Positions 10,601-28,925 of a DNA stretch of 64,000 bases are shown here, one piece after another (positions within the stretch are counted from its first letter, which is position 1; each line of letters opens with the position of its first letter). The notes under the pieces are model-generated. The model ran no database searches and was not told the origin of the DNA. It saw only the letters and a list, made by a program, of their open reading frames with translations. This DNA is from Methanosarcina sp. 2.H.T.1A.6 (GTDB taxonomy: Archaea; Halobacteriota; Methanosarcinia; Methanosarcinales; Methanosarcinaceae), in the NCBI RefSeq assembly GCF_000979455.1, contig NZ_JJOY01000006.1:53622-117621 (forward strand), read 5' to 3'. The translations under genes and the position numbers were made by a program.

Positions 10601-11788
10601 ATGGTAAAGAAAGTTGCACTTGCGTATTCCGGTGGGCTTGACACCTCGGTGTGCATCCCCATCCTCAAGGAAAAGTACGGGTACGATGAAGTAGTTACAA
10701 TTTCGGTCGATGTAGGCCAGCCCGAAGAAGAGATCAGGAAAGCTGATGTGAAAGCCGAGAAGATCAGCAACAAGCACTATACTATTGATGCAAAGGAAGA
10801 GTTCGTAAGAGATTACATCTTCCCCCTGATCAAAGCCAACGGAAACTACGAAGGCTACGTCATGGGCACATCGGTAGCCCGCCCGCTGATCGCCAAGAAA
10901 GTGGTCGAAGCTGCCATTAAAGAAGGCGCAGTTGCCCTTGCTCACGGCTGTACCGGGAAAGGAAACGACCAGCTCCGCTTCGAAGCCGTTTTCCGCCAGA
11001 CCGACATGGACGTTATTGCCCCTATGCGTGAGATGAACCTGACCCGCGAATGGGAAATCAACTACGCAAAAGAGCACGGCATCCCTGTCGAAGCCACCAA
11101 ATCCAAGCCCTGGAGCGTTGACGAAAACATCTGGAGCCGCAGCATCGAAGGCGGCAGGCTTGAAGACCCATCCTTCGTCCCGCCGGAAGAGATCTTCGAG
11201 TGGACCAGATCCGCAGAAGATGCCCCGAACGAGCCCAGGATCGTTGACATCGACTTTGAAGCAGGAGTCCCTGTCGCTATTGACGGCGAAAAACTCGGCG
11301 GCTACGCCCTTGTCAAGAAGATGAACGGAATTGCAGGGGAGAACGGCGTCGGCAGGACAGACATGATTGAAGACCGTGTCCTTGGCTTAAAAGCCCGCGA
11401 GAATTACGAGCACCCGGCTGCAACCGTCCTCCTCGCAGCCCACGCCGACCTCGAAAAACTCGTCCTCACCCGCGGGGAACTGAAGTTCAAGAAGAGCGTT
11501 GAAGAGCAGTGGTCCGAACTTGCCTACTATGGCCTTGTAGACGAACCCCTCTATGCCGACCTCAATGCCTTTATCGACAAGTCCCAGGAAAGGGTCACAG
11601 GCACAGTGAAAGTGAAGCTCTACAAAGGCGCACTTACTATCCTTGCCCGCTACTCTCCAAATGCCCTGTATTCCGAAGACCTTGTCTCCTTTGACAGCCA
11701 GACCATCAACCAGCAGGATGCTGAAGGGTTTGCGAAGTATCACGGGTTCCAGGCGAGGATGTACAGGAAAGTAATGGATAAAAAGTGA
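10601..11788 (+). CDS. argG: Argininosuccinate synthase
   Basis: A 395-residue cytoplasmic enzyme that joins citrulline and aspartate using ATP, the penultimate step of arginine synthesis. The N-terminal ATP pyrophosphatase loop is [10 protein letters not shown] (about residues 8-17). Family signatures follow: [17 protein letters not shown], and the [24 protein letters not shown] region. Length is normal. The ATG at 10601 is preceded by GGGGTAG as a possible ribosome-binding site. It follows carAB and is followed by a hairpin with a T-run. Confidence 0.97.
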
Positions 11789-11908: not shown

Positions 11909-14900
11909 TCATTGAACCTTTTCGTTGTTCCACTCTAGTAAAGACTGGAATTCTAAAAAGTGGCGCTGTTTGTATTTAATTACATACTCAGTATTTTCAT
12001 ATGATTCTTTTTTTTCATTGTATTCATCATAAACTTTGACAATTACTTCGTTTTTCTTCACATTATCAAGGTCAATATCTTTAAATCCATGTTTGAAAAT
12101 TGCTGCGTGGTAAGAACATAAACAAACCATATTTGAAATATCGGAGATCCCCTGATTTCTGATTTCATCTAATTTTGTGACTACACAAAAGTTTCTCATG
12201 CCATTCTTTTCTCTGAAAGTACGCCCACAAATCTGACATCTACCCTTATACCATTCTTTAATTTCATTTACTGCATCTTTGTCTTGCTCGTTAGGATCTA
12301 AGCGCTCACTTGTAGATCTTCTAATATTATTGGAACGTTCTCTTCTTATGCATTTTTTGAACCTTTCCTTTGCTTTTCTTTTTATTTGTTGAGTTTCTTC
12401 AAGGGGCAGAGGTTCCTCTTTCTCCTCAATAGCACCATTATTATTTTTTCCTCCCGTAGGTGAAGATGAATTATTTTCAATAATTTTTTCTTTAAAGTTT
12501 GTACCCATAGAGGGACTTGTTGTTTTCCCTTTTTTCACTTCTGAATATTCATCATCTTGCTCTTGTGGGCTTTTAGTTTTGTTCTGTTTATGTTGTTTTC
12601 CGATCTGTTCAGATCTCGAACTATCTGGGATCTTCCTATTACTGATATCCACATGATCAAGCTTAACAGGTCTTTTATTTACCTTTTCTTTCCCGAAATC
12701 AGCTCCATCATTTGAATTAGTATTTATTTTGTCATTTTGTTGGTTTTTGAAATTAATAGAACTTTCATCCGTTAGGCTAGTACTGCCATTATAATCTGTA
12801 ATTTTATTTTTTTGTGGAGAGTGTTTACTGATCGTATCTTCATCAAAAGTATTATTAATTGAGGCTGTCGAAGTATTAACAGAGTTAAAAACTTCATTTT
12901 TTGCGAGTTTTTCTTCTGTTTTGGAAGTTAAAATTTCTTTAGTATCATTGGCTTCAATGCATTCATCATTGCCAATATCTTTGCGACTATCTGTATAGTA
13001 GTCATCACTTTCATGATTCCCTTCATCCAGAAGTTCTTCACTTTCATCAGAGATGTTATCATCTATTTTTTTATCAACTTGCAGCAAAGTATCGTCTGAT
13101 TTTTCTACTTGTGTATAATTAAGGAAAGTTAAATACTCATCCATACCATTAGGAGAGCTTTTAGTTAAAAGTGTGTAAATGACAGATTTAAAATCTTTGC
13201 TGATGTTTGGATGGATATCTTCAAAAATTTCCTCTGCTAAGGATTCAAGTATTTCCTCATTGGATTCTTTTACATAGATTTCACTAAATACGTTACCATT
13301 CATTTCAATGTAACAATTTATCTCGTTGGCACATGAATTATGCTTTGTACCATCCCAAACAACGTACTTTAAAACAGACAAATCATCGAATTGATATACT
13401 TTTATTTCCGGACAGATTTCCGCCCACTCATCTTCCAAGTGTTCATTTTCTATTTTAATTCTGGGCAGTAATTCCGATATCCAGCGAACTTTGTATGTGT
13501 AATCTTCATTAATTTCCAATGAACTTACATCTGGCTTGAATTCGAGATCTTTTTCCACGAGTCTACTTAATCTTTTTATTTCTAATCGATTAATTAGATT
13601 TAAGTAGTCTGTGTTATATTTTACAAAATAAGTGCCGAGTTCTCCTCTAAATTGATCAGCTAGACTCGGATTATCTTCCAATATAGCCATATTTGGCTTT
13701 AACAATACGTTTTCATTGTTATAGAGAATGTGCAAAGTTTGTAACTCTGAGATCAAATCTGAACCGAAATTACAATCATCAATATTTTTATTTAGTTCTT
13801 TTAAACAATTAATTACAATATTTTTATCTTTTTCTGAAGAAATAAGATAATTATCTTTCTCATATTTGTCGTTGATATTCTTAAAAATCCCTTTAATAGT
13901 CCGACAATCAGGCGCTTCCAGAATATGCAAATAATTTATCAACTTTTCGCAATCGACAACAAACTTTCTGGTCAAATAGCCTATATATTCATTTCCATAT
14001 AACTCTACTGTGGAATCATTTTTAAATGTTCTACATGGTTCAAAAAATGAGAATTCGTCCTCATTCTGGTATTTGATGTAAATAGAAGGGAAGTCATTTA
14101 ACCTGTTAATGTCTTGAGCCCAAGAATTGTATGATTTATTATCAATCCTTCTATTAATCTCGCTGTAGATTTCAAGATAGTTTTTCAGAGGCTTATGTTT
14201 TTTGTTGGCTTGCTCTATGTTATCTATAATTAAACCCGTAGGAATTCTATGTACGTTTTTTAATTTAAGAACATTTACTAATTCAGCTTTAATAATTTGC
14301 TTATCTGTGACATCCAAATACCGTATATTATCAAGATAAATCAAATATTGTCTAGTGTTTTGAGCTTTGCTAACTTTGCTTTGCGTAAATAATGAAGATG
14401 GATTATACAATGTTTTGCTATCATCTGTAGCCGGTAACCATTTAATTTCAGCTAATTCTGAGAAATCTTCAAATGATCCCCAGTGATCATTTATATACAC
14501 AAAAATAGTTCTCATCTTGTTAATTAAATTTAAATCAATTTCTTCAAGAGATATTTTCTGTTTTACGTAATCGATAATTTCTCGTGGTGATAGTTGACTT
14601 TTAATTTCTAATATTTCATACATTCGCCTATAATCTTCGAAATCTTCCAGGCAAGGGAAAAGATAATCATCTTCAAAAATTTCATCAATTAACTCATTTT
14701 TAAAATATAGGTTTTCATGACTAGGGAAGTAAAAATTGCCATCTTGGCAATAGACTAACTTAATTCTTCTCAGAATATTTATATCAAAATTGGGATCATC
14801 ATTCAAATTAAGAAACTTCTTATTCAGTTCCTTAAGAAGTTCCAATTTTTTACTCTTTTCTATACTTTCATCATTAAATATTTCTGGAAAGTATCTCTCA

Positions 14901-17900
14901 ACAAACAACTTGAAATCAAGAGTCTTAATTCCCAAATACTCAGTAAGAACTACTTTTTTAAAATTATCTACCTTGTCAATCAAATCATTGCTTAAAATTT
15001 CATTGATACCAATAGGATCTCTATAATCACCCAGCAACATCATTTCTTTTCCATTGTTTTCCAGAGTACATGGTTTGCCTTGAGTATTTTTAAAAATAGG
15101 TAGTCTTCGGATTCTTGATTTCAACTCTTTATTAGATAAGCTGCTGCTATCATCAAAAATTAATTTATACAATAAAACTATATCTGAATCATTTAGAATT
15201 GAACCTTTATTTAAACCAGCCTCTGTATAATAAAAAATGTGATCCAACTCTAATTTCTTTATAAGGTTGTATTTAGAAACTATAATTTTGACATTAGGGT
15301 CCATTATTAGTAGATCATTTTTCGAAGCAAAAACTTCTTTCTCTTTTGGATTCAGATAAAAAATATCTCTTTCGTACGGATAATGGAATTCCTGATCATT
15401 ACAATAGATAAATTTTGTATTTTTTAAAATTTTTCCTACTTTTTCAGATTCCAAAGTGGTAGTGCTCAGATCTTTTATTAATTCCAATTTTTTGTCAGTA
15501 TCAACATCTGATTCATTAAAAATATCTTCTAAGTAATTTTCAACAAACAATTTAAAATCCAAAGTTTTTATTTTAAAGTGGTCTCTGAGAATTGATTTCT
15601 TGAACTCATCTACACTATCTATCATTTCATTATCTAATATTCGAGCAATGCCAGTATAGTCGTCGAATGATCCTTGCAAGAATATTTCTTTTTGTTCATT
15701 TTTCAAAGAACAGGTATTCCCTTTGTTATCAATGAATATTGGCAAATTCTCAATCAAATATTTAAGTTTACTGTTATCAATTAGCTGATTTTTCTTATCT
15801 ACCATTAACTGATATAATAATAAAAGAAAATTCTGTTCTAATGCGATGCCAGATTCACATTCTTGTTTTACATTGAAAAAAATACTTACAAGATCAAGCT
15901 CTTGAACAAAACCGAAACTTTTCAGCATAGATGCTATGTCTGGATCTATTGTTACCAGTTGATATCTGGAAGCAAAATCTTTTTCAAGCTGTGAAATCAG
16001 GTTGAATACTTTATTATTCTCTAATGAATATAAAGAACCTTCTTCACTTAATGAAAGTGGTAAATATTTAGTTCTCTCTAAATATTTTTCAAAATATAAT
16101 TCACAATCCCTATATTGGCGAGTATGAGGTCTAATAAACCCTTCCTCAAATGATTTATTTCCAAATTTATTTATTAAATCTGTGGAGATTGGTTGATTGG
16201 TTTTTAAGCATGCTATAATTTTTAAGAAGGGGTCAAGGAAGGTTATTATTGTAACAAGTTTTTCTTTTGTGTTCAAATAAGGCTTTGAATTAATCAAATC
16301 CAACGGAAAAGTCTGGGCTTCGAAGTCACTACTTAGTAACTCAATAATATCCCTAGGAGAAGTAACTGTAAATATATCCAGTCTTTCCAATAGTTCCTTA
16401 AAAATATGAAATAATTCATCATCTATCTTCGAGAAAGTCAAATCCCCTTTCAATGATTCAAGTTCTTTTGGGTACCGTGTGATTTTACCTATACTAAAAT
16501 TAATCAATTTTGAGTTATTAGTTAAAAAAATATTAATTCTTTTAATCGTTTCTTTATTTTCTTCTAATGTATCCCTATCTAAGTTTTCGAGATAATTGAA
16601 GATGCTTATTAATTCATCTTTTGACTCAAAAATCGATTCCTTAAATAATGTTTTCTCTGGAATATTCTCTTCTATCAAAGAAATTAAATCTTCAAGTTCA
16701 AACTCCTTTACACCCAATTTTTCGAATAAATCGTGATAAATGGAATGCTCTTCAGGAATTATGGGGTATTCAATCCTTTCTAAAAATGGAATTATCGTAG
16801 AATTCCTTGAGAATTTTACATCGTTTATGCAGTGCCACTCATTGTTTATAAAAATTACATCAGGATCAGAGTTAATAAGAACGTCAACGAAATCTTGGAA
16901 ATATGAACTTACTATAGTTTCATTATTCAAAAAAGAATTCAATAGCGTGTAGAAAGACTCTACTGTTAAAGTGTTTTTAAGGTCGTCTATTATAGAATCA
17001 AGAAGATTGGGGAGATATTCAAATATTTTTAAATTATATAGTCCCTTTTCATCGTCGGTTTTAGTAATTATTTGTCTTCTGTTAGGATCGGGCTGAAAAT
17101 CAGAATTTATATTAAGTGGAGAACCAGTGCACATTTCAGTAGGAAGAGTGCAAAAGATTCTTCCGTTTTCAAAGTTAGAACAGTCGAATGCTATGGAAAG
17201 TAAAATCGAACTATTTCTTGCAATTCCGGTGGCATATTCTTCGGAAAACTCATTTTCTAATTTGTAGTGATATAAATAAACAGTAGAAATGTTGTTATTT
17301 ATTGTAATTGTTTTTACTTCCTTCCAGAGGTTCACATATCCAATGACCAGAGATTTTCTGTCAATTTCAATACTCTTGAGGAGTTTTTCTCTTTCATAAA
17401 TCCTAATTCTTGTTATGTTTTTTAAAAAATGGAGATCGTTATCTATACACTTTATGACTCCATTTAGATACTCCTCTTTTTTTTTAGGTGTGACAATATC
17501 CCCATTAATTAATGTACGTACATTGGAATCTTCTGTCCTCCAGAAGAACTCAAACTCGGTAGTATTATTTTCAGAGTATTTTGGTTTTGTATATGCCCTC
17601 CATTTTTTTGATGTGTTGATCTTGCTCAAATCAGCTTTCTTTGATGCCCCTTTTGAATGGATATTCAAGGTATCGCAGATCTTAAACACCGAGGTAAATC
17701 CAATTCCAAATCTACCTGCCCTTTCGGAATCACTTTCCTTGTTTCTAGAACCAATTTTTTTAATGTGTTCCCAATCTCTATCCGTGAAAACCGTATTATT
17801 TTTCAGAACGAGAGCATCTTCGTTAAACAATATGTCCACATTAACATTTTGTCCATTTGCAGAATCATCCGAGTTTTGAATCAATTCCCTGAACAGTGAG

Positions 17901-17995
17901 TCAAAACCGGAATATGATCTTAGATTTCTCTCGATATCTGCATAGATGTCAACGATATACTCTTCACCTTCATCTAAAAATTCATCTTCTGACAT
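11909..17995 (-). CDS. Giant sacsin-like GHKL ATPase with C-terminal HNH-like zinc module
   Basis: About 2,028 residues. The N terminus is a Bergerat (HSP90/sacsin-type) ATPase: ELIQNSDDS (N-box, near residue 40), then GRFGIGFTSVF. Two imperfect internal repeats follow; each has a LPIF block, a KTLDFKLFVE block and then KLEL. A long charged, Asn/Ser/Lys-rich, probably disordered stretch covers about residues 1630-1890. A zinc module ends the protein: CQICG near 1925 and CLCSYH near 1965. In that module the usual HH of HNH nucleases is replaced (NFCVVTKLDE), so it may bind without cutting. The ATG at 17995 follows GTGGGGGAATTATTA; a GTG at 18010 is the alternative. The start lies inside the helicase gene. 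Base composition is far more AT-rich than carAB, suggesting transfer. Role inferred: partner of the helicase in DNA defence. Confidence 0.85.
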   Translation of the reverse strand: MSEDEFLDEGEEYIVDIYADIERNLRSYSGFDSLFRELIQNSDDSANGQNVNVDILFNEDALVLKNNTVFTDRDWEHIKKIGSRNKESDSERAGRFGIGFTSVFKICDTLNIHSKGASKKADLSKINTSKKWRAYTKPKYSENNTTEFEFFWRTEDSNVRTLINGDIVTPKKKEEYLNGVIKCIDNDLHFLKNITRIRIYEREKLLKSIEIDRKSLVIGYVNLWKEVKTITINNNISTVYLYHYKLENEFSEEYATGIARNSSILLSIAFDCSNFENGRIFCTLPTEMCTGSPLNINSDFQPDPNRRQIITKTDDEKGLYNLKIFEYLPNLLDSIIDDLKNTLTVESFYTLLNSFLNNETIVSSYFQDFVDVLINSDPDVIFINNEWHCINDVKFSRNSTIIPFLERIEYPIIPEEHSIYHDLFEKLGVKEFELEDLISLIEENIPEKTLFKESIFESKDELISIFNYLENLDRDTLEENKETIKRINIFLTNNSKLINFSIGKITRYPKELESLKGDLTFSKIDDELFHIFKELLERLDIFTVTSPRDIIELLSSDFEAQTFPLDLINSKPYLNTKEKLVTIITFLDPFLKIIACLKTNQPISTDLINKFGNKSFEEGFIRPHTRQYRDCELYFEKYLERTKYLPLSLSEEGSLYSLENNKVFNLISQLEKDFASRYQLVTIDPDIASMLKSFGFVQELDLVSIFFNVKQECESGIALEQNFLLLLYQLMVDKKNQLIDNSKLKYLIENLPIFIDNKGNTCSLKNEQKEIFLQGSFDDYTGIARILDNEMIDSVDEFKKSILRDHFKIKTLDFKLFVENYLEDIFNESDVDTDKKLELIKDLSTTTLESEKVGKILKNTKFIYCNDQEFHYPYERDIFYLNPKEKEVFASKNDLLIMDPNVKIIVSKYNLIKKLELDHIFYYTEAGLNKGSILNDSDIVLLYKLIFDDSSSLSNKELKSRIRRLPIFKNTQGKPCTLENNGKEMMLLGDYRDPIGINEILSNDLIDKVDNFKKVVLTEYLGIKTLDFKLFVERYFPEIFNDESIEKSKKLELLKELNKKFLNLNDDPNFDINILRRIKLVYCQDGNFYFPSHENLYFKNELIDEIFEDDYLFPCLEDFEDYRRMYEILEIKSQLSPREIIDYVKQKISLEEIDLNLINKMRTIFVYINDHWGSFEDFSELAEIKWLPATDDSKTLYNPSSLFTQSKVSKAQNTRQYLIYLDNIRYLDVTDKQIIKAELVNVLKLKNVHRIPTGLIIDNIEQANKKHKPLKNYLEIYSEINRRIDNKSYNSWAQDINRLNDFPSIYIKYQNEDEFSFFEPCRTFKNDSTVELYGNEYIGYLTRKFVVDCEKLINYLHILEAPDCRTIKGIFKNINDKYEKDNYLISSEKDKNIVINCLKELNKNIDDCNFGSDLISELQTLHILYNNENVLLKPNMAILEDNPSLADQFRGELGTYFVKYNTDYLNLINRLEIKRLSRLVEKDLEFKPDVSSLEINEDYTYKVRWISELLPRIKIENEHLEDEWAEICPEIKVYQFDDLSVLKYVVWDGTKHNSCANEINCYIEMNGNVFSEIYVKESNEEILESLAEEIFEDIHPNISKDFKSVIYTLLTKSSPNGMDEYLTFLNYTQVEKSDDTLLQVDKKIDDNISDESEELLDEGNHESDDYYTDSRKDIGNDECIEANDTKEILTSKTEEKLAKNEVFNSVNTSTASINNTFDEDTISKHSPQKNKITDYNGSTSLTDESSINFKNQQNDKINTNSNDGADFGKEKVNKRPVKLDHVDISNRKIPDSSRSEQIGKQHKQNKTKSPQEQDDEYSEVKKGKTTSPSMGTNFKEKIIENNSSSPTGGKNNNGAIEEKEEPLPLEETQQIKRKAKERFKKCIRRERSNNIRRSTSERLDPNEQDKDAVNEIKEWYKGRCQICGRTFREKNGMRNFCVVTKLDEIRNQGISDISNMVCLCSYHAAIFKHGFKDIDLDNVKKNEVIVKVYDEYNEKKESYENTEYVIKYKQRHFLEFQSLLEWNNEKVQ

Positions 17996-20900
17996 TAATA
18001 ATTCCCCCACAAATTAACTCATGACTAACTATTACTTTTTTGTTTGATTCCAGGATTTCCCTTTTGTTTTCATAATTACGTGCCAAATTGATTTTTTGTG
18101 ATTCTTTCATTTTTAAAATCTTCATTGATTTGTTATCTAGATGCTCTTTTATTTTTTCGATCGTTTCATCAATCTTGGCTGTATTTATATCGAATGTTTG
18201 TTTAAGGCTACTTAATTGATCATTGACAAGTGATTCATTAATTTCTTTTAATTCATTCTCACGGTGTCGTTTTTTCTCTATTACAAAATTCTCTGAAATT
18301 TCTTTGCATAAATTGATATCTTGTTCCGAAATATTGATATTATCCAACAAATCATTTGACTTTTTAAAAATTTCGAACAGATTTTCTGAATATTTGTCAT
18401 TTATTGTTTGTTCCAGAATATCAACAACAACCGGCACAAAAGTTAACGAGTTAGTAAAACTGGAAATTTCAAGGAGGTATATGAAAAACAGATAATCTCT
18501 TTCCTGAGTTGCTTCCTCATCGTAAAATTTGATTTTGGTTATCGCCTTAAACTCTTTATTTTTATAAAAACTGATGATCGCTTTTACCAGAGGATGCCTT
18601 AATGTAACAAATTCTATGGATTGATCTGTATTGGCAATTTTATAATCAAAAGTGATTTCAAAATCGTCTCGACTTGTTAAGTCTAGGAATCTTTCAATCA
18701 ATTCATTTTCGACATTTCCTCTTTTAAGGAACTCTCTGATGAAAGTTCTAAATTCGGGATCAGGACTTATCTGGAAAACTCCACCATTTTTCTTTGAAGC
18801 CCTAAATTTTGATTTAGGATAGTGATCATTTATAAAAGTGCTTATAAAGTTAATAATTTCAAGAGGTGTTATGAATTTTTCATTTTCTAAGATATCAGAA
18901 ACTTGCTCAGTGAAGTAATTATTTTGGCCAATGATTTTCTTTCTTTCCTTATCAAATAATTCAAGTTCTTGTCTCTTTTTTTCGATCACAAGTGCAACTT
19001 GATCTGCCTTTGTCTTTTGCTGCTCAAGAGTTAGTTTAGGATTTATAATTTCTCTAGTTAACTGATTTATCTGATTTCCTAAAATTGGCTCCAATTCCCC
19101 GATATATTGTTCAAAAACACCAATTCTATTGCATAGTCGAAGGAAAATATCAGATTCAATAGTTCGTTCAATAGAAAAATTATAAATGTGTATTTTGGGA
19201 CTTTTCTGTCCATATCGATCTAATCTACCAATCCTCTGTTCAATTTTCATTGGATTCCATGGTAAATCATAATTAAACATACAGTTGCAAAACTGCATGT
19301 CTAATCCTTCACCGCCCACGTCAGAAGATAGAAGGATCTGATAACCGTCAGCTTTAGCAAATTCATCAATTATTTTATCTCTTTCAATAAATGGTACATC
19401 CCCATCAATTCTAACAACTGACAATCCCAAAGTTTTTAGTTTTGTTTCGAGAAATTTTAATGTTCTTTTAAAAAAGGAAAAAATAATTATTTTCTTAATT
19501 TCATCATTACTTGTGGTTTCTTTAATCGTTTTTATAAAAGCAATTGTTTTTGAATCCAGTTCCGAGATGTTCTCTTCAGCGAACTTTATTAAATAACTAA
19601 TATTCTCAAGATCTGATTTTGTGAAAGTTATTTTTTGTATGCCAGAAATGTCTTCTTCATAATCTTCTTCGGATAAATCAAACATCCCTTTGCTATACAT
19701 ATCTCTTAGATACTCTACCGAAGCAGGGATACAACTAGCAACTTGTCTTAGTGGCATTTGTAATAAAAAGCCAGGAGGACAGCCTGGATGTAGATTCAAG
19801 AATAAATCTGAGATTCTTTCATAAAAAAAGCGTTCTACATCATTTAACTGTACATTTATAGTAACAGGTTCTCGAATTGGAAATTCTGTAGTTATTTCCT
19901 TCTTTTTTGTTCTCGTATACACTTGAGAAAGAACATTCAGATCACTAAGTTTTCTTTGCAAATGAGCTGTTTCTTCACTGTCAAGAAGTGTGTTTTTTGA
20001 CAATAATTTTATGCAGTAATTGTAATTAGGATTTGCTAAAAACCTTTCTCTTTGATTCGTTTGTTCAACTTTATTTAATGCATGTAAAATAGAATTTGGG
20101 GATTCTTTTCGGGAAAGCTTCAATAAAGCCAAATTTATGAATTCATTTGGCTTTACCTGTTCTTGAAATGTATCAAAATTATCAAAGTGCTCAGGAAGCA
20201 TTATGTTTAATAAATTAAATAAATCCTTATCTCCCAATTGGAGAGGCGTTGCTGATAACAAAATCATCCCGTCGGCAATTCCTGAGATTATTTTCCCCAA
20301 CGAATTGCTTTTTGTGCTTTCATTTCTCATATGATGAGCTTCGTCAATAATCACCAAATCAAAAGGAATCTGCAGTCTTTCGAATTCTTTCAAAATCTCT
20401 TCATTCCTTAACATCTGAATTGATGCTATACCCTTTAGAGATACTCCACTTGAATAACGTTCATATTTTCTAAAAAATATTTTCAAGGTATTTGAATCAA
20501 TAATTGAAAAATCCTCATCGAAACGTTTTTTCATCTCTTTTTGCCACTTATAATGTAAAGCAGAAGGACAAATAATCAATACATTTTTTAGATCATATCT
20601 CGATAACAATTCAGTATAAATGATTCCAGCTTCGATGGTTTTTCCAACACCAACCTCATCTGCAATTAATAGCCTCTGATAAGGAGAGTTAAGGTATTTT
20701 AGCACAGGTTTGAATTGATGAACTTGAAATTCAGTTCTTGATGATAAAAATGCATAAAGATTATTGGAAAGAGGTATTTCAATCTTGATGTAGGTAAGAT
20801 AACTCATAAAATCCTTCAATGGAACAAAATGATTTTCCCGAAACATTACATTTATATCCCTTTTTGTGACTTCGGCAGATTCCAAGCTTTCTTCAGAATA

Positions 20901-21035
20901 AGTTTTTTGAGAATTTTCAATAAAGAGAGTATAATAATATTCACCAGAAATAATCTTTGGATCTTCATAAATAAATCCAATCTTTTCTGTATTAACTAAT
21001 CTCACAATTTGTCCCTTGCTGAATATAGGATTCAT
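17982..21035 (-). CDS. SNF2/RapA-type superfamily II helicase
   Basis: About 1,017 residues. Motif I is ADEVGVGKTIEAG (about residue 127), motif II is IIDEAHH, motif III LLSATPLQL. The C-terminal helicase lobe carries SSDVGGEGLDMQ and QRIGRLDRYGQ, typical of the RapA-like SNF2 group of double-stranded DNA translocases. A HQFKPVLKYL block precedes the Walker motif. The C-terminal 350 residues are charged with coiled-coil-like helices and have no domain I recognise. The ATG at 21035 follows GGTGGGTATACCT; an upstream GTG at 21050 would add five residues. The stop overlaps the sacsin-like gene by 14 bases, so the two are translationally coupled. Same AT-rich composition as its partner. It resembles helicases of DISARM-like systems, but no methylase gene is present. 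Confidence 0.88.
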   Translation of the reverse strand: MNPIFSKGQIVRLVNTEKIGFIYEDPKIISGEYYYTLFIENSQKTYSEESLESAEVTKRDINVMFRENHFVPLKDFMSYLTYIKIEIPLSNNLYAFLSSRTEFQVHQFKPVLKYLNSPYQRLLIADEVGVGKTIEAGIIYTELLSRYDLKNVLIICPSALHYKWQKEMKKRFDEDFSIIDSNTLKIFFRKYERYSSGVSLKGIASIQMLRNEEILKEFERLQIPFDLVIIDEAHHMRNESTKSNSLGKIISGIADGMILLSATPLQLGDKDLFNLLNIMLPEHFDNFDTFQEQVKPNEFINLALLKLSRKESPNSILHALNKVEQTNQRERFLANPNYNYCIKLLSKNTLLDSEETAHLQRKLSDLNVLSQVYTRTKKKEITTEFPIREPVTINVQLNDVERFFYERISDLFLNLHPGCPPGFLLQMPLRQVASCIPASVEYLRDMYSKGMFDLSEEDYEEDISGIQKITFTKSDLENISYLIKFAEENISELDSKTIAFIKTIKETTSNDEIKKIIIFSFFKRTLKFLETKLKTLGLSVVRIDGDVPFIERDKIIDEFAKADGYQILLSSDVGGEGLDMQFCNCMFNYDLPWNPMKIEQRIGRLDRYGQKSPKIHIYNFSIERTIESDIFLRLCNRIGVFEQYIGELEPILGNQINQLTREIINPKLTLEQQKTKADQVALVIEKKRQELELFDKERKKIIGQNNYFTEQVSDILENEKFITPLEIINFISTFINDHYPKSKFRASKKNGGVFQISPDPEFRTFIREFLKRGNVENELIERFLDLTSRDDFEITFDYKIANTDQSIEFVTLRHPLVKAIISFYKNKEFKAITKIKFYDEEATQERDYLFFIYLLEISSFTNSLTFVPVVVDILEQTINDKYSENLFEIFKKSNDLLDNINISEQDINLCKEISENFVIEKKRHRENELKEINESLVNDQLSSLKQTFDINTAKIDETIEKIKEHLDNKSMKILKMKESQKINLARNYENKREILESNKKVIVSHELICGGIINVRR

Positions 21036-21339: not shown

Positions 21340-21652
21340 TGATGTCCGCCGGGCAGGAAAATTATATTTCAATTGAATTGGTGATGGGGGAAGAATTTTA
21401 TTTTGTATTCGGCGGTCCAGTTTCTGACAGCTTTCCTTGATCCATAATTCACTTGAAAAAATTCGCTTGAATCAGAAAAACCTCCCCACAGGAAAAAGAA
21501 TCGCTTAACCTAAAGAAGCCCTGCAGAGTACCCCTTCTAAAGATGCAAAAATCACGGGTTTTTCGATTTCGCTTTTCTGAACATTATCTTAACAAATGTA
21601 TTCGGGGTAGATTTAAGCAGACCGCCGGCAGGAAAAATATATTTCAAATGAA
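21340..21652 (+). repeat. Accessory-array repeat R, copy 1
   Basis: This is the best-preserved copy of a dispersed intergenic repeat, here about 245 bases plus the tail of a preceding copy (21340-21376). Landmarks in order are GTATTCGGCGGTCCAGTTTC, AAAGAATCGCTTAA, CTAAAGAAGCCCTGC, ATCACGGGTTTTTCGATTTC, ACAAATGTATTCGGGGTAGA, and the core GCAGACCGCCGGCAGG (21617-21632) followed by AAAAATATATTTCAAATGA. It fills the gap between the helicase operon and the next gene. No coding capacity is seen. Confidence 0.85.
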
Positions 21653-21737
21653 TTACTTGTGGGAAAAATTTTCACTTTTTGTCCAGAAGTCCGGTTTTTG
21701 ATATAATAAAAAACTTAAGGAGAAAGCAGGAGACTAT

Positions 21738-22313
21738 TTGGTCCTAAATAAAAAGGATGAAATTCTGCAAAGTTATGTTAATTGTATGTCACTTTTAGAA
21801 TCAATAGATAACTATTCTACATTAATTACAGCGCTTGCAACTGTAATCCTTGTAATTGTTACTGGATGGTATACCCATTTAACTCATCTGGCAGTAGACA
21901 AAACGGAGAAAATGATCCAACAATCGAGGAATGAACAAAAAATTGAATTAATTGAAAAAAGGCTTGAAAAACTATATGATCCTTTGATTATTGTGCTAAG
22001 TTCAAGAGTCCCTGTTTATTCTATAGAAGGAAATATCCCAATAAATGGTGATGAAAATAATATTGGCAATGCTGATATCAATAAGCACCCGATAGATGAA
22101 ATTTATAGGTATCAGTATTTAATACCTGAGAGAAACAATTTAAAGCAGTCTTTGGATCTATTTCTGAAAATGATGGATGCCACGAAAGGAAGAAATAAAA
22201 AAGTTGAGATAGGAAAAGAGGAGATAGTATCCTTTTGTAAGAATTTTCGAGAAGATATTACTCAAGATATTGAAAAATCTAGAGAAGAATTATATGAATT
22301 AATCCAGCAGTGA
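21738..22313 (+). CDS. Hypothetical membrane-anchored protein
   Basis: A 191-residue protein I do not recognise. Starting at TTG 21738 (AGGAGA lies just upstream) it has one transmembrane segment near residues 28-50 (LITALATVILVIVTGWYTHL). A long hydrophilic, probably coiled-coil region follows (MIQQSRNEQKIELIEKRLEKL), then a charged cytoplasmic domain ending in EELYELIQQ. The layout resembles small membrane-tethered effector or sensor proteins of accessory regions, but no catalytic motif is seen. It is AT-rich like its neighbours, and the DUF429 gene follows after 79 bases in the same direction, so the two may be co-transcribed. Confidence 0.6.
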   Translation: MVLNKKDEILQSYVNCMSLLESIDNYSTLITALATVILVIVTGWYTHLTHLAVDKTEKMIQQSRNEQKIELIEKRLEKLYDPLIIVLSSRVPVYSIEGNIPINGDENNIGNADINKHPIDEIYRYQYLIPERNNLKQSLDLFLKMMDATKGRNKKVEIGKEEIVSFCKNFREDITQDIEKSREELYELIQQ

Positions 22314-22392
22314 AGCTTAATAGACAATTTATAGAATTTTATAAGAACTAAAATTCCTTCCAATAGAGGGATATTAATACGGAAGTAAACAC

Positions 22393-23217
22393 ATGAAAAA
22401 TCTATTCCCCAAATCTACAATTTACGGCGTAGATTTTAGTGGCTCGAAAGAGGCCTGCAAGAAGATATGGGTTTGTGAATCAATTTCTACAGACAAGGGA
22501 CTTCTCGTTAAGGATTGCTGGAACTTAAAAGAAAAATATGGAAATCTCTCCCGTGACAGATCCTTTGAAATCTTAACTAAAGTTATTGCTTCCAGTCCAA
22601 GAGCCGCTTTTGGCCTTGATTTTCCTTTTGGGTTACCAAAAAGCATTATAGATGAAGATAACTGGATAGATTTCATAAAAAACTTTTCTAAAAATTACGG
22701 TGATCCTTATCAGTTTCGCCAAAGATGTCATGACAGAGCCTTAAAATTGACTGGAAAAAAAGAACTAAGAAGATATACAGATATAGAGAATGGTTCGCCG
22801 TTTCCCCCATGTAATCTTCGTCTTTTTAAACAAACTTACTATGGAATAAACAACGTACTCCGTCCCTTAGTAATGAGTAAATCAGCAAAAATATTACCTA
22901 TGGAAGATCAAGAAATTTCAAGTCCCTGGGTACTTGAAATTTGTCCAGCTTCTACACTCAAAGATTTAGACCTGTATTTTACTGGTTATAAAGGGAAAGA
23001 GAGCACTTCCAGTGAACTCCGAGAAACTATTTTGTCTAAGTTAAAGAAAAGTGAATTTGTAACAGGAATTGATTCAAAAGTGTGGAAAACCTCTGTTGAG
23101 AATGCAGAAGGAGATGCTTTGGATAGTGTAATAGCTGCAATAGCTACTTACAGAGGATTATACCCAGATCTCAATTTAGATGATATTTACAAATTGGAAG
23201 GTTACATTTATGTGTAA
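22393..23217 (+). CDS. DUF429 family protein (RNase H-like fold)
   Basis: A 274-residue protein of the DUF429 family. Recognisable blocks are YGVDFSGSKEA (residues 12-22), a first acidic strand; GLDFPFGLP near residue 77; ICPASTLKDL near 185; and EGDALDSVIAAIATY near 240. Together they match the acidic-residue pattern of an RNase H-like fold, which is why the family is described as predicted nucleases. Its biochemical role is not established. It follows the membrane protein by 79 bases and is followed by repeat R copy 2. AT-rich, accessory context. Confidence 0.8.
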   Translation: MKNLFPKSTIYGVDFSGSKEACKKIWVCESISTDKGLLVKDCWNLKEKYGNLSRDRSFEILTKVIASSPRAAFGLDFPFGLPKSIIDEDNWIDFIKNFSKNYGDPYQFRQRCHDRALKLTGKKELRRYTDIENGSPFPPCNLRLFKQTYYGINNVLRPLVMSKSAKILPMEDQEISSPWVLEICPASTLKDLDLYFTGYKGKESTSSELRETILSKLKKSEFVTGIDSKVWKTSVENAEGDALDSVIAAIATYRGLYPDLNLDDIYKLEGYIYV

Positions 23218-23249
23218 TTTTCAATTTTTCTGGTAGTTCCTAAAACAAA

Positions 23250-23450
23250 GATTCATCTGAAAAAGTATCGCTTTAATCAGAAAATTCCCCAAAGAAAAAA
23301 GAATCGATTAATCTAAAGAAGCCCGGCAAAGTGCCCCTTATAAAGCTGAAAAAATCACGGGTTTTTCGACTTCACTTTTCTAACTTTATCTTAACAAACG
23401 TATTCGGGGTAGATTTAAGCAGACCGCCGGCAGGAAAAATATATTTAAAC
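23250..23450 (+). repeat. Accessory-array repeat R, copy 2
   Basis: Same element as at 21.4 kb and same orientation. It carries AAAGAATCGATTAATCTAAA, GCCCGGCAAAGTGCCCC, ATCACGGGTTTTTCGACTTC and the core GCAGACCGCCGGCAGG at 23419-23434. It separates the DUF429 gene from the MntA/HepT pair. Confidence 0.85.
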
Positions 23451-23558
23451 TGATTTTGATTCAAGACACAGATTCCAATTTTCCTCTTTAGTAATTATAA
23501 ATACTACAACAGCAAATTACTATAATATACCAGAAAAGAAAACAACGAGCCTGAATAA

Positions 23559-23864
23559 ATGCCTGAAAACCAAAAAAAAGTTGAAGTCTACATTCAAAAA
23601 CTCCACGAAATGCTCCCGGAGCTTAGAGAGAGATACCACGTCAGTTACCTGGGGGTTTTTGGGTCCTATATTCGGGAAGAACAGAAACCAGAAAGCGATC
23701 TGGACGTGCTTGTGGAATTCAGTAAGACTCCTACTATTTTTAAATTTGTCAACCTTGAAAACTACCTTTCGGAATCTCTCGGCGTTAAGGTAGATCTGGT
23801 TATGAAAGATGCCTTAAAACCAAATATAGGCAAACACATCCTGAGAGAAGTTGAAGCCGTCTGA
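23559..23864 (+). CDS. mntA: MNT-domain nucleotidyltransferase, MntA-type antitoxin
   Basis: A 101-residue minimal nucleotidyltransferase. The GSYIREEQKPESDLDVLVEF block supplies the GS-x(10)-DxD catalytic pattern (about residues 40-59). In characterised MntA/HepT pairs, MntA neutralises the HEPN toxin by adding AMP groups to a tyrosine near the toxin active site. The ATG lies upstream of a typical MNT start (PENQKKVEVYIQKL). Its TGA at 23862 is followed directly by the HepT frame in the same register. Flanked on the left by repeat R copy 2 and on the right, beyond hepT, by a truncated repeat R. Confidence 0.88.
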   Translation: MPENQKKVEVYIQKLHEMLPELRERYHVSYLGVFGSYIREEQKPESDLDVLVEFSKTPTIFKFVNLENYLSESLGVKVDLVMKDALKPNIGKHILREVEAV

Positions 23865-23870
23865 AGAGGG

Positions 23871-24212
23871 ATTGAGATCCGCGAAGTAAAAGATTATGTC
23901 CAGGATATTTATGATGCAATGGAAGCAGCAGAAGAGTTTGTCAACAACTTGACATTCGATGATTTTGCTGCCGACCGTAAAACCCAATTTGCAGTAATCA
24001 GAGCTCTGGAAATTATTGGCGAAGCAACAAAGAACATCCCCTCTGAAGTACGTGAAAAATACCTGTCCGTACCCTGGAAAGATCTTGCAGGCATACGGGA
24101 CAAGTTGATCCATGCTTATTTTGGAGTGAATTTGAAGGTAGTCTGGTTATCCGTTAAAGAAGGTATTCCAGAAGCAAAACCGGATATCAAACGCATACTG
24201 GATGAAATGTGA
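23871..24212 (+). CDS. hepT: HEPN-domain toxin, HepT type (non-AUG start or damaged start)
   Basis: A roughly 112-residue HEPN protein. The RNase motif R-x(4)-H is present as RDKLIH, followed by AYFG; the family block AVIRALEIIGEATKNIP precedes it. The known role is a ribonuclease toxin silenced by MntA. The frame is open and family-like from just after the mntA stop (EIREVKDYVQDIYDAMEAAEEF), but between that stop and an internal ATG at 23919 there is no ATG, GTG or TTG. Candidate starts are ATT 23871 or ATC 23877; beginning at 23919 would remove part of the first helix. Either an isoleucine codon initiates, or the start has been lost. Confidence 0.75.
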   Translation: MEIREVKDYVQDIYDAMEAAEEFVNNLTFDDFAADRKTQFAVIRALEIIGEATKNIPSEVREKYLSVPWKDLAGIRDKLIHAYFGVNLKVVWLSVKEGIPEAKPDIKRILDEM

Positions 24213-24267
24213 ATCAGAAAACTCTCCCCAGTAGAAAAGAATCGCTTAATCTAAAGAGGCCCTGCAA
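24211..24267 (+). repeat. Accessory-array repeat R, truncated copy
   Basis: Only the middle of the repeat is present (CAGTAGAAAAGAATCGCTTA, ATCTAAAGAGGCCCTGCAA). It stops abruptly where hicA-like sequence begins, so the junction joins the repeat to a broken gene. Confidence 0.7.
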
Positions 24268-24376
24268 TTGTCACCCTGCCGGGTTTAGTAGGGGGCTTAT
24301 ATTGCCGGTGGCTACCTTTTGTTGCAACCAGATACCAGCCATCGGCTTCAAGAAGTTTTATGACCTCACGTACTTT
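24251..24376 (-). pseudogene. hicA: hicA toxin remnant
   Basis: Reading leftward, the frame gives KVREVIKLLEADGWYLVATK, then GSHRQYKPPTKPGRVTIAG, then stops at TAG inside the repeat. This is the first two-thirds of a HicA mRNA interferase, including the conserved GSH histidine. The start codon position holds ACA instead of ATG, and the C-terminal third is missing. No hicB antitoxin is next to it. The gene is dead by truncation, and the break coincides with the edge of a repeat R fragment. Confidence 0.75.
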
Positions 24377-24438
24377 TGTCTTTTAACTGATTTTGTTTTT
24401 AGACGAATTCCGAAGCCAATAGTTAATCTGCTATCTTT

Positions 24439-24569
24439 GAGCCTATTCGAAAAGTGGGTAACTATGCAACTTTTGCAATGTATTAAATGCAAAACCGGAA
24501 TGGATATTCTTATATTATATACTTATTATGACTTTTCAATATGTTGATATTGACTTTTCGGATAGGATC
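24439..24569. mobile_element. MITE with GAGCCTATYCGAAAAGT inverted ends
   Basis: A 131-base element bounded by GAGCCTATTCGAAAAGT and the inverted ACTTTTCGGATAGGATC (17 bp, three mismatches). The inside is AT-rich and non-coding. The size and ends fit a miniature inverted-repeat element mobilised by a transposase elsewhere. No clear target duplication is visible. Confidence 0.6.
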
Positions 24570-24591
24570 TAAGCTTTATGTAACTAATTAC

Positions 24592-25140
24592 TCATTGAGT
24601 TTCTATTTGTTCGGATAAATATTCTGTCATTCCCAGAAGCACAAATGCCCTCGTTACCAATCCGAAGAATGCGCTGTAGAATATTAAAAAAAGGATGTCA
24701 ACAAATACAAAAATAGGATCATCGCTTGTCCAGCCAAAGAGGGAGTGAAAGTCCATGTGAGTAATAGAAAAATATACAAGCAGAGCTAAAATTCCCAAGA
24801 AGAAGGAAATAACCGAATTTTGTTGCATTCGTTTCTCAAATGAAATACCTTTGAATTCCTTTTGACTCATTTCCCATTCAGCTTTCAGGAGGCGGCGTTT
24901 GCAAAATATATGGAACATTACAAACAAGCAAATAAGCATGGTTACAACGGTAACCTGCTCCGGAGAGAAATACTTCAAAGCACCTTCATCAGGCCATTCT
25001 CCCAGAGGAATTATCTTTATTAAAGCATTGGAAAGAGGAAACAGAACGGACACTCCTGCAAGGATGCCCCATAAAGTTTGAAGAAAAGAAGTAAACTCTT
25101 TAAATTCCGTTATAACTCTTGAAGTCCCCATATTTTCCAT
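24592..25140 (-). CDS. Hypothetical four-helix membrane protein
   Basis: About 182 residues with four hydrophobic segments (LQTLWGILAGVSVLFPLSNALI, VVTMLICLFVMFHIF, VISFFLGILALLVYFSI, VDILFLIFYSAFFGLVTRAFVLLG). No catalytic motif or known family is recognised. ATGs at 25140 and 25131 and a TTG at 25149 are possible starts; AAAGGG precedes the ATGs. It stands alone between a MITE and a repeat R copy, in the opposite direction to most neighbours. Confidence 0.6.
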   Translation of the reverse strand: MENMGTSRVITEFKEFTSFLQTLWGILAGVSVLFPLSNALIKIIPLGEWPDEGALKYFSPEQVTVVTMLICLFVMFHIFCKRRLLKAEWEMSQKEFKGISFEKRMQQNSVISFFLGILALLVYFSITHMDFHSLFGWTSDDPIFVFVDILFLIFYSAFFGLVTRAFVLLGMTEYLSEQIETQ

Positions 25141-25312
25141 CCCTTTCAATTCTTTTTCTCTTTTGTTGTACTGTTAATATTTACCTATCCCAGGATGTCT
25201 TCCTCCTTTTAATAATATACATTAGAATAGATAATAGTTATTAATGAAAATTTGTTATTTCTTTCAAGGTTTTAATGGCAAAACTGAAAATTATTAGCGG
25301 CAACCGTTAATT

Positions 25313-25540
25313 TTCAATTTCACTTTTCTTAACATTATCTTAACAAACGTATTCGTGGTAGATTTAAGCAGACCGCCGGCAGGAAAAAGATATTTTAAAT
25401 AAATTGCTTTGAGGGAAGGTTTTCAGTTCGTATTCGGCGGTCCAGTTTCAGATGGCTCCTATGAAAACAAGACTCGGTTAACAGATTTTCAACTTAATCT
25501 GAAAACTGCCCAAAAAAGAAAAAATCAATTTTAAAGGATT
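25313..25540 (+). repeat. Accessory-array repeat R, copy 3 (rearranged)
   Basis: It contains the 3' part of the repeat first (ATCTTAACAAACGTATTCGT, core GCAGACCGCCGGCAGG at 25368-25383) and then the beginning of another unit (CGTATTCGGCGGTCCAGTTT). So two adjacent partial units meet here. It separates the membrane protein from the prenyltransferase homologue. Confidence 0.8.
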
Positions 25541-25561
25541 GGTAAAAGGCAAGAAAGTCAA

Positions 25562-26270
25562 TTATCCACCCAGCGTAATATCCTGATCTTGATAAAACTC
25601 CAGTGCATTGAATAAGTGTTCTGGCTTAAAATCTGGCCACATTTCGTCAACCACGTATATATCCGAATATACCGTTTGAACTGGAAGCATTCCACTAAGT
25701 CTGTGTCTTCCTCCCCAACGAATAAGTAAATCTATTCTTGGAATGTCTGCTGATGCAATATTTTCTATCATTTTTTTACTATCTGAAGAGTTCTCAAATG
25801 CAGACGTTAAATCCCAATACCAGCCATAATTTACCAAAAAATTTATCCTTACTTTACCTTTCCCAAATTTAGTCCTGTTTGTATATGCAAGTAACTCTTT
25901 TGGAAACATGTCCGAATTGGTATTCCCTACTACAAGAAGTTCAGCATCACGTTTTGAAAGTTCTTTAACTGACTTTATACAGGCATCTACAAACGCTTTT
26001 CTTTGAATTTGAGGTCTTTTTGTGTTATCCTGAGTGAATCCAAAAAAAGTAATTTCGCATATTCCTGTTTTTACGCATATATCATATAGCTCTAGGCCTG
26101 GAACTATTCCATATTTATATCCTTCATGCTTTTCTAAGCCTCTATCTAGAGCCCATCTCCTGTTTCCATCCGGTATTATAGCTATGTGTCCTGGTAGTCT
26201 TTTAAATTTAGGTATATCCAGAAAATAACCCCCTATTTCTTTGCTTAAAAATGCTATAAATAATCTTCAT
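25562..26270 (-). pseudogene. cis-Prenyltransferase (UppS-like) gene with N-terminal frameshift
   Basis: Reading leftward, the frame encodes a complete Z-type prenyl diphosphate synthase homologue: HIAIIPDGNRRWALDRG (catalytic Asp and phosphate-binding Arg), ITFFGFTQDNTKRP, then RIDLLIRWGGRHRLSG and YVVDEMWPDF. No usable start precedes it in frame. A correct-looking start, ATG at 26270 (MKIIYSIF), lies in another frame and would join if the five-A run at 26247-26251 (T-run on the coding strand) had six bases. So this is either a one-base deletion or a sequencing error. The metal-ligand Glu of RTxGExR is replaced by Arg, marking a divergent subfamily. A Methanosarcina cis-prenyltransferase with non-head-to-tail activity is known; whether this is its orthologue is unproven. 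Confidence 0.72.
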
Positions 26271-26317
26271 TGAACTCAGCTAATGAATTTTATGCGTAGA
26301 ATTTAGTTGGAAGTCTT

Positions 26318-26505
26318 ACTTTAATCAAAAACCTCCCCCAGAGGAAAAGAATCGCTTAATCTAAAGAAGCCCTGCAAAGTGCCCCTTATAAAGCTGCAAA
26401 AATCGCGGGTTTTTCAATTTCGCTTTTCTGAACATTATCTCAACAAACGTGTTCTGGGTAGATTTAAGCAGACCGCCGGCAGGAAAAATATATTTCAAAT
26501 GAATT
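26318..26505 (+). repeat. Accessory-array repeat R, copy 4
   Basis: Well-preserved copy: AGAGGAAAAGAATCGCTTAA, GAAGCCCTGCAAAGTGCCCC, CAACAAACGTGTTCTGGGTA, core GCAGACCGCCGGCAGG at 26468-26483, then AAAAATATATTTCAAATGAA. It lies between the prenyltransferase homologue and the AAA ATPase. Confidence 0.85.
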
Positions 26506-26585
26506 GAAAGACAAAATAAGAAATCTCTTTTCTTTGTTAATACCCCGACATCATAAGGCTCAAATTCACTTTCATTTAAATAATC

Positions 26586-26643
26586 GTCATTATAATGATG
26601 ATTATGGCTTCAAATATCGTCATTGTAATGAAAGATATAAATA
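26586..26643 (+). promoter_or_regulatory. Two TCATTRTAATGA palindromes and TATA box upstream of the AAA ATPase
   Basis: TCATTATAATGA (26586-26597) is a perfect 12-base palindrome. TCATTGTAATGA (26619-26630) is the same with one change, and both are preceded by CG. Their centres are 33 bases apart. AAGATATAAATAC (26631-26643) directly after the second looks like the TATA box. A repressor bound at both sites would cover the promoter. The regulator is unknown. Confidence 0.6.
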
Positions 26644-26664
26644 CTCTACACCCAAATATTCCCT

Positions 26665-27951
26665 ATGAAACAGCTCATGAAAATGTGGAACCCCTGGTGG
26701 ACAGAAGGAAAAGTCCCTGCTTCTAAAAAGAGGATCTCACGCCCCGAGACCCTTGAAACAATCCTGAAGCTTCTGGATATCAGGGAGGTTATCTGCATTA
26801 CCGGGGTCAGGAGATGTGGTAAGTCTACTGTGATGTACCAGGCAATAGATCATCTTATAAGAAAAGGAGTGGAACCTGAAAATATCCTTTACTTCAACCT
26901 CGATGAACCTTTTGAAGACAAAAACATAGGACTGCTCGACAGAATATTTGGGGAATACATAGAGCTTCATGTGCCGAAAGGGAGAAAATATATCTTCCTT
27001 GATGAAATCCAGAATATAAAGGATTGGGAACAGTGGGTCAAAAAGTTCTATGACCTTTATGGGGAAGATATCAAGTTTGTGCTTACGGGTTCGAATAGCA
27101 GTATGCTTTCTGACCAGCTCTCTACTCTTTTGACCGGCAGGATGATCACGCAACATGTGTTTCCCCTTTCGTTTAAAGAGTATCTTGATTTTGAGGGTTT
27201 TAAATTAAAAGATCCTGACATTCAGAGAAACGAAATTCTGCACTATTTTAACAAATATCTCTTCAAAGGAGGTTTTCCCGAAGTTGTCCTGGAAGAGGAT
27301 ATGGATATAAACCACCTCCGGCTAACCGAGTACTTCAACAGCATTCTCCTTCGGGACATAGTGGTGGGTCGGAATATCCGGGAAAGTGCAAAACTTATCG
27401 AACTTGCGAATTATTCCCTATCAAACATCTCTACCCTCCTGAGCTATTCAAAAATTTCAAACGCAACAGGGCTATCGGTTAACAGCCTTAAAGAATACTT
27501 GCTTTACCTGGAACAGGCCTACCTGATATACCAGTTAAACTTCTTTTCATATTCAGTTAAAGATTCAATCTCAATCAAAATGCCCAGGAAGGTTTACTGC
27601 ATCGACAATGGACTCCGAAATTCAACAGCATTCACCTTTTCTGCCGATGAAGGAAGGCTTGCAGAGAACCTGACATTTGTAGAGTTGAAACGGAGAAAAG
27701 TAGAATTCTTTTACTGGAAAGAAAAAAAAGAAGTGGATTTTGTGATAAAAGGTATAGATGGAGCGCTCACAGGTATAAACTGCACCTATACAGATCACAT
27801 AAGACAGGGAGAAATCAATGCTCTTCTGGAATTCAAGGAACATTTTGGGGAAAAGGTTTCCAGGTTAATCTTGCTCACAAAGAATCTCGAAAAAGAGGAA
27901 AATGATATTATCTATGTTCCTCTCTGGAAATGGGTTCTTGGAACCAGATGA
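26665..27951 (+). CDS. AAA+ ATPase with C-terminal DUF4143 domain
   Basis: A 428-residue protein of the archaeal/bacterial AAA_14-DUF4143 family. Walker A is GVRRCGKST (residues 47-55); Walker B is YIFLDE (109-114), followed by the sensor block FVLTGSNSSMLS. The C-terminal DUF4143 part has a PD-(D/E)xK-like signature: FSADEGRLAENLTFVELKRR followed by WKEKKEVDFVI. These proteins are common, multi-copy and poorly characterised. Putative operator palindromes lie upstream. A 5'-truncated, closely similar copy lies at 36.5 kb. It is bounded on both sides by repeat R copies. Confidence 0.88.
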   Translation: MKQLMKMWNPWWTEGKVPASKKRISRPETLETILKLLDIREVICITGVRRCGKSTVMYQAIDHLIRKGVEPENILYFNLDEPFEDKNIGLLDRIFGEYIELHVPKGRKYIFLDEIQNIKDWEQWVKKFYDLYGEDIKFVLTGSNSSMLSDQLSTLLTGRMITQHVFPLSFKEYLDFEGFKLKDPDIQRNEILHYFNKYLFKGGFPEVVLEEDMDINHLRLTEYFNSILLRDIVVGRNIRESAKLIELANYSLSNISTLLSYSKISNATGLSVNSLKEYLLYLEQAYLIYQLNFFSYSVKDSISIKMPRKVYCIDNGLRNSTAFTFSADEGRLAENLTFVELKRRKVEFFYWKEKKEVDFVIKGIDGALTGINCTYTDHIRQGEINALLEFKEHFGEKVSRLILLTKNLEKEENDIIYVPLWKWVLGTR

Positions 27952-28059
27952 TTGAAATAGTTTAAAATTCCTGCTAAGGCTATTGGTTCAGGAAGATGAT
28001 TTAGAGTTACCTAAAAAGGATATAGAAGAATTTTTACCTCGTATAAAGTGATCCATTTT

Positions 28060-28699: not shown

Positions 28700-28925
28700 T
28701 TTTCGGGCTCCTTTCTTTAGTCTATAATTAACTTGAAAAAGTCCCTTAAATCAAAAAATCTCCCCGAGAGGTAAAGGATCGCTTAATCTAAAGAAGCCCC
28801 GCAAAGTGACCCTTATAATACTGCAAAAATCACGGGTTTTTGGTTCACTTTTCTTAACATTATCTCAACAAACGTATTCGGGGAAGATTTAAGCAGACCG
28901 CCGGCAGGAAAAATATATTTTAACT
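28700..28925 (+). repeat. Accessory-array repeat R, copy 6
   Basis: Same order of landmarks: AAGGATCGCTTAATCTAAAG, GCCCCGCAAAGTGACCC, ATCTCAACAAACGTATTCGG, core GCAGACCGCCGGCAGG at 28893-28908, AAAAATATATTTTAAC. It precedes the DUF1699 locus. Confidence 0.85.

Follow-up and report, generated by a model that had tools for sequence, protein, structure and literature searches.

The window analyzed here, a stretch of 64,000 nucleotides from Methanosarcina sp. 2.H.T.1A.6, contains two translationally coupled genes, one for an SNF2 helicase (HEL) and one for a giant sacsin-type ATPase (SAC), that probably act together as a system against viruses or plasmids, each being an obligate component. Drawn from sequence comparison, this two-component defense reading follows from the conserved linkage of the genes, their correlated divergence, their location in defense hot-spots, and the nuclease and RNase domains fused to the helicases of relatives. 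A preliminary description of this DNA had proposed that the pair could be a stand-alone defense system, and the linkage, the co-varying sequences, the argG defense hot-spot and the defense genes in the flanks all support that proposal. In the best reading the HEL-SAC unit is a new combination of known parts. The pair had also been called uncharacterised, which holds for the combination to the extent that no description of it was found in the literature searched for defense systems with a sacsin/Hsp90-like ATPase and a helicase, a search of partial coverage and so weak evidence; it does not hold for SAC by itself, which already falls within the PADLOC models for TmtA (Tiamat). Such a unit is easily missed because database models match HEL, as a relative of DrmD, and SAC, as a relative of Tiamat, separately.

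Organization of the locus and its genomic slot

The pair and its borders are arranged as follows.

10601..11788, plus strand: argG, a host gene with a cargo hot-spot on its 3′ side
11909..18010, minus strand: SAC, giant sacsin/Hsp90-type ATPase; open reading frame of 2033 aa, likely start ATG 17995
17982..21035, minus strand: HEL, RapA/DrmD-type SNF2 helicase; about 1017 aa from ATG 21035, helicase core only
17982-21050, minus strand: HEL open reading frame as called; 1022 aa, open to TTG 21050
21346..30629: dispersed-repeat array including MntA/HepT toxin-antitoxin genes; far border of the cargo slot

Both open reading frames were recovered on the minus strand at 11909-18010 and 17982-21050, in agreement with the coupled gene order first described, and if SAC starts at ATG 17995 its start overlaps the HEL stop by 14 nt. 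The starts at ATG 21035 and ATG 17995 are likely because the start codons are accompanied by a purine-rich ribosome-binding-like sequence (GGTGGG/GTGGGGG). The same kind of helicase/sacsin gene overlap occurs in a relative (L033). The contrast in composition noted earlier is borne out as well: GC content is 0.28-0.33 in the pair versus 0.45-0.53 in carAB-argG, and 0.33-0.39 in the accessory array beyond the pair, which was correctly described as its border and holds dispersed repeats and the MntA/HepT genes.

The pair sits between argG and the repeat array; related species have the array behind argG but lack the pair. In the ten species from which regions were compared, this position is nearly always filled by another low-GC cargo. 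Elsewhere in the genus this cargo includes Gabija (PADLOC matches to GajA, 9e-246, and GajB, 3e-193), a PDC-S65-family SIR2 gene (9e-50, PADLOC), HEAT/PIN-type effector genes, and also genes that have no PADLOC match. Since the slot exchanges known defense systems between species, the window pair occupies a genus-wide defense hot-spot.

Several features of the surrounding DNA deserve record in their own right. In one related species (G132, locus L178) the 3′ end of argG is partially copied three more times behind the intact gene, at 891-1242, 9873-10090 and 12667-13016 (350, 218 and 350 bp); these copies were possibly left by elements that target the end of argG and re-duplicate it on insertion. 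The dispersed repeats of the window, of about 200-350 bp and mostly 80-90% alike, lie at 21346, 23251, 25311, 26318, 28025, 28675 and 30425, and repeats of this type recur in the same neighborhood of many related species. Within the array, 23559-24212 encodes an MntA nucleotidyltransferase and a HepT-like protein (1e-26) of the type VII toxin-antitoxin kind, the HepT open reading frame being short (97 aa). At 25562-25909 there is a 115-aa remnant of undecaprenyl diphosphate synthase comprising only the C-terminal half, and a similar remnant is found at L183 (11794-12141).

The flanks of 16 pairs elsewhere match, among the families listed, JetA and JetB (Wadjet), MzaC, a type I restriction enzyme and a type III methylase, together with HEC-01A, SngC (Shango), PtuA (Septu) and GajB-like families. 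Control flanks, taken around housekeeping-type SNF2 genes, show one methyltransferase alone among the families listed; the comparison covers the 25 commonest families per set and is a lower bound, not a formal enrichment. In M. hollandica the HEL-SAC genes reside on plasmid pMETHO01, with a restriction endonuclease, Csa3 and toxin-antitoxin genes nearby, and further annotated plasmid neighbors of pairs include a dsDNA nuclease and ABC-three component genes.

Conservation of the pair

A search for HEL that was blind to its partner, run over 393 genomes of the phylum at E <= 1e-60, returned ten matches, nine of them outside the window, and in all nine SAC lies immediately downstream on the same strand. 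For a wider scan the helicase alignment was run against one genome per species across bacteria and archaea, followed by gene calling. SAC is downstream in 16 of the 17 new loci scoring at least 1018 bits, the seventeenth (L087) stopping at a contig end, and the truncated helicases L108 and L122 likewise have SAC, so that the partner is present in 18 of 18 testable new loci. Because known pairs supplied the profile, the bit-score threshold favors SAC-linked helicases; the new loci themselves were absent from the profile. At the other end of the scale, SAC is adjacent to none of the 35 more distant full-length helicases that carry the SAC-less label on the tree, all scoring below 800 bits; in one of these loci (L089) a fragment of sacsin type lies at a distance of 2.3 kb. 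The proposition that all SNF2/DrmD relatives are SAC-linked was accordingly rejected, given the helicases under about 800 bits that lack SAC.

The hosts of the pair include Methanosarcinaceae, Thorarchaeota, Deltaproteobacteria, Rhizobium, Lachnospiraceae, Poribacteria and Vibrio. Distribution is very patchy: within the order, SAC was found in 2 of 150 genomes, and within the phylum HEL was found in 9 of 393; some sacsin ATPases occur without a helicase, and no SAC relative was found in viral contigs. On the helicase tree the SAC-linkage label changes twice, compared to about 21 times when shuffled, and a single origin of the SAC-linked helicases is not rejected (AU test, p 0.24; the free tree has 2 changes). 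The divergences of HEL and SAC are correlated over 25 pairs (Spearman 0.53, equaled in 3 of 5000 permutations), a correlation that could come in part from shared host ancestry. The preliminary description had looked to co-occurrence in defense islands as the test of its proposal, and had named unlinked genes or core-genome contexts as what would speak against it. Across the 9 of 9 and 18 of 18 testable loci the two genes are linked, and the neighborhoods hold defense genes.

Three arrangements seen among the relatives bear mention. In L065 (11247-12788) and L100 (12943-14214) the gene next to a SAC-less helicase encodes an actin/Hsp70-like ATPase with a GxDFGTxxTKV start, a candidate parallel partner of chaperone type. 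L075 (6216-14882) has a SAC-less DrmD-type helicase inside a BREX-like operon with BrxC upstream. In two archaea (L056, 11690-16128; L057, 3375-7813) sequence inspection shows an SbcD/SbcC-like pair that immediately precedes the helicase and sacsin genes, giving a four-gene run.

The helicase and its relatives

HEL matches the Pfam families SNF2-rel_dom (E 1.8e-25) and Helicase_C (E 2.2e-24), and its best PADLOC model is DrmD, matched over the full length at 1.9e-156. It falls below the NCBIfam equivalog cut-offs both for DrmD (NF038317, 369.8 bits against 610) and for RapA (NF003426, 227 bits against 576). The nearest solved helicase structures are RapA and eukaryotic remodelers. The initial assignment to a RapA-type SNF2 protein is therefore retained for the SNF2 core and withdrawn for RapA itself, the DrmD profile being closer and both equivalog cut-offs missed.

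Some relatives of HEL carry additional domains. Among eight helicases scanned, five have an N-terminal HEPN_Swt1 domain and two a PLDc_2 domain, all above the Pfam cut-offs. The window HEL has neither an N-terminal HEPN nor a PLD domain, and no nuclease or RNase domain was recognized in either protein of the window pair. Fusions of HEPN domains with SWI2/SNF2 helicases have been recorded by Anantharaman et al. (2013, PMC3710099).

A DISARM-like cluster is present elsewhere in the same genome (G000 contig 13, L188, 2404-10218), where a C5 methylase, a 1281-aa protein and a 600-aa MZB/DUF1998 protein are encoded and no PLD gene was found by motif.

Domain structure of SAC

SAC is divided into the following regions.

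17411..17938, minus strand: Bergerat-fold (GHKL) ATPase domain, residues ~25-200
16421..17410, minus strand: Hsp90-like middle region, residues ~201-530; model pLDDT mostly 80-93
15377..16009, minus strand: internal repeat copy 1, residues 668-878
14723..15364, minus strand: internal repeat copy 2, residues 883-1096
12371..13063, minus strand: low-complexity hydrophilic linker, residues ~1650-1880
11912..12268, minus strand: zinc domain of McrA/TagI HNH fold, CQIC ... CSYH; catalytic His replaced by Lys

The N-terminal portion matches the Pfam family SACS (E 7.6e-22). Residues 11-870 were modeled from 20 sequences, one plasmid-derived row having been left out of the structure-prediction input; the model is confident over the first ~530 residues and has pLDDT below 50 across much of 560-811. 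The modeled N-terminal domain alone is closest to crystal structures of sacsin SR1, and together with the middle region it is closest to Hsp90/TRAP1, so that the HSP90/sacsin Bergerat ATPase read from the sequence at the outset is confirmed by profile and by fold. The N-box E and N and the GxxGxGF motif are invariant across the SAC family, and the window protein keeps ELIQN and GRFGIGFTSVF. In the DxG motif, the residue that contacts adenine, canonically Asp, is either Asp or Asn across the family and is Asn in the window (KNN). The corresponding Asp to Asn change in yeast Hsp90 abolishes ATP binding, and for this reason ATP binding by SAC is regarded as putative. Downstream, the internal repeats and the disordered linker of the preliminary description were both found: the repeat copies share 38% identity (668-878 versus 883-1096, E 2e-45), and hydrophobic fraction drops from ~0.40 to 0.15 over the disordered stretch at ~1650-1900.

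The C-terminal 150 residues were modeled at pLDDT 81. The model matches the HNH domain of TagI (Foldseek 9e-4; Z 9.6, rmsd 3.0, 100 residues aligned) and that of EcoKMcrA by fold, and a profile of the SAC tail detects EcoKMcrA by sequence as well (hmmsearch, E 1.8e-9). The zinc ligands, C-x2-C ... C-x2-C/H, are retained in nearly all aligned tails. Of 20 aligned tails, 2 have the catalytic His that acts as general base and 18 lack it, the window having Lys. An active HNH nuclease was considered for the tail and rejected, since this His is missing; the domain is better regarded as a pseudo-nuclease from which no cleavage is expected. The HNH-like zinc end proposed earlier thus stands as a zinc domain with an HNH fold and falls as a nuclease active site. 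All 26 full-length SACs that are linked to a helicase have the domain, whereas among 12 unlinked SACs it was detected in 2, and weakly.

A proposed mechanism

We propose that HEL would act as a double-strand DNA translocase that recognizes or tracks along invading DNA, and that SAC would form a dimeric, ATP-gated Hsp90/MutL-type clamp which HEL loads, or by which HEL is licensed. The McrA-fold zinc tail may bind DNA, perhaps modified DNA or DNA ends, and would not cut it, and the long linker could give the tail its reach. The meeting of HEL and SAC on foreign DNA would block expression or replication, or release an effector, which in relatives would be the HEPN RNase or PLD nuclease carried on the helicase and would be optional. 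Because no nuclease active site was recognized in the window pair, blocking or silencing, or recruitment of a host nuclease, is a more likely outcome for this version than cutting, and this is the least certain step of the scheme. The broader claim, that archaea and bacteria share a widespread, so far unnamed immune system of two genes, combining an SNF2 motor and an Hsp90/sacsin clamp with a dead McrA-type tip, and with interchangeable HEPN or PLD effectors on the motor, the window version clamping and silencing foreign DNA without cutting it, is tentative and is held with somewhat less than even confidence.

If the pair is a system of this kind, it would add a chaperone-type GHKL clamp joined to an SNF2 translocase to prokaryotic immunity, and natural variants with an RNase, a nuclease or no effector could be used to dissect sensing from killing. 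Sacsin is mutated in ARSACS, a human ataxia, and its prokaryotic relatives would gain a testable function.

Alternative explanations

Parts of the unit resemble established systems closely enough that the simpler assignments must be weighed. HEL could be a DrmD that works in a reduced or derived DISARM with components encoded elsewhere in the genome, as the full-length PADLOC match and the DISARM-like cluster on another contig would allow. That cluster, however, lies off the window contig; the genome has two MZB/DUF1998 genes, located on contigs 7 and 13, and the window is on contig 52. HEL misses the NCBIfam DrmD cut-off (370 versus 610 bits), DrmD-model scores are higher for some SAC-less helicases (760-789 bits) than for SAC-linked ones (342-520), and the partner within the HEL clade is always SAC and never a linked drmABC set. 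Scanning of window proteins next to the pair and inspection of the pair loci turned up no drmA (helicase), drmB (DUF1998/MZB) or drmC (PLD), and no DNA methylase (DrmMI or DrmMII) matched among the proteins scanned beside the pair. We therefore conclude, as did the preliminary description, that the pair is not DISARM, and consider the reduced form very unlikely. SAC could alternatively be sufficient alone, with the helicase as an optional neighbor. Tiamat is a single-gene system; several TmtA models match SAC, PDLC03969 (E 1e-124) among them, the SACs of other pairs likewise match TmtA, and the helicase is absent beside some other sacsin ATPases. Yet SAC adjoins the helicase in every testable case of the HEL clade, with genes overlapping or near-contiguous and divergence correlated, and the pseudo-HNH end is common to linked SACs and undetected in most unlinked ones. 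The fixed helicase partner and the different end domain argue that the pair is not plain Tiamat, and a single-gene system is improbable here.

Two further explanations place the pair outside host immunity. SNF2 helicases and GHKL ATPases also serve chromatin and repair roles, and the pair could be a host DNA-repair or chromatin module in which an SNF2 remodeler and an Hsp90/MutL/MORC-like clamp act on stalled forks or transcription complexes and not on invaders. The similarity of HEL to RapA and eukaryotic remodelers and the SbcC/SbcD-like genes upstream in L056 and L057 are consistent with such a role, which is nevertheless unlikely in view of the very patchy distribution given above (SAC 2/150, HEL 9/393), the low GC content and plasmid carriage, the exchange with Gabija at the argG hot-spot, and the RNase and nuclease fusions on helicase relatives. 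An addiction or element-protection module borne by a mobile element would account for the toxin-like HEPN domains of relatives, the adjoining MntA/HepT pair, and the hint of element insertion in the partial argG copies of G132. Against it, the pair has no small antitoxin-like partner, no integrase was identified beside it, and addiction modules do not typically consist of two large ATPases, which leaves this explanation highly improbable.

Comparison with known systems

The two-component defense system proposed here shares at least one element with each of several known systems and departs from each in composition. Class 1 DISARM has a DrmD SNF2 helicase that is distantly homologous to HEL over its full length; its drmA, drmB, drmC and DrmMI are without a linked counterpart here, and the partner of HEL is instead a sacsin-type ATPase. 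The TmtA models of Tiamat cover sacsin/Hsp90-like ATPases including SAC, but the best of them continues into a tail (positions 1383-1490) to which SAC has no match, SAC ending in the pseudo-HNH domain, and a single gene contrasts with the helicase linked to SAC in every testable case. Hma (helicase, methylase, ATPase) and Mza (MutL-like, Z1, AIPR) are alike in the idea of a helicase with a further ATPase, although SAC matches no HmaC or Mza model in the PADLOC scan and no linked methylase was found. With the type IV restriction endonucleases McrA and TagI the SAC tail has the HNH fold and zinc site in common, and it differs in the catalytic His, which is missing from 18 of 20 tails. Five HEL relatives share the architecture of the Swt1-HEPN proteins with SWI2/SNF2 domains, for which the parts of that account consulted (PMC3710099) describe no sacsin ATPase partner, unlike the relatives of HEL. 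Human sacsin and Hsp90 resemble SAC in the N-terminal domain and middle region; the J domain of sacsin has no match in prokaryotic SAC, which has instead a zinc tail and an SNF2 helicase as its partner.
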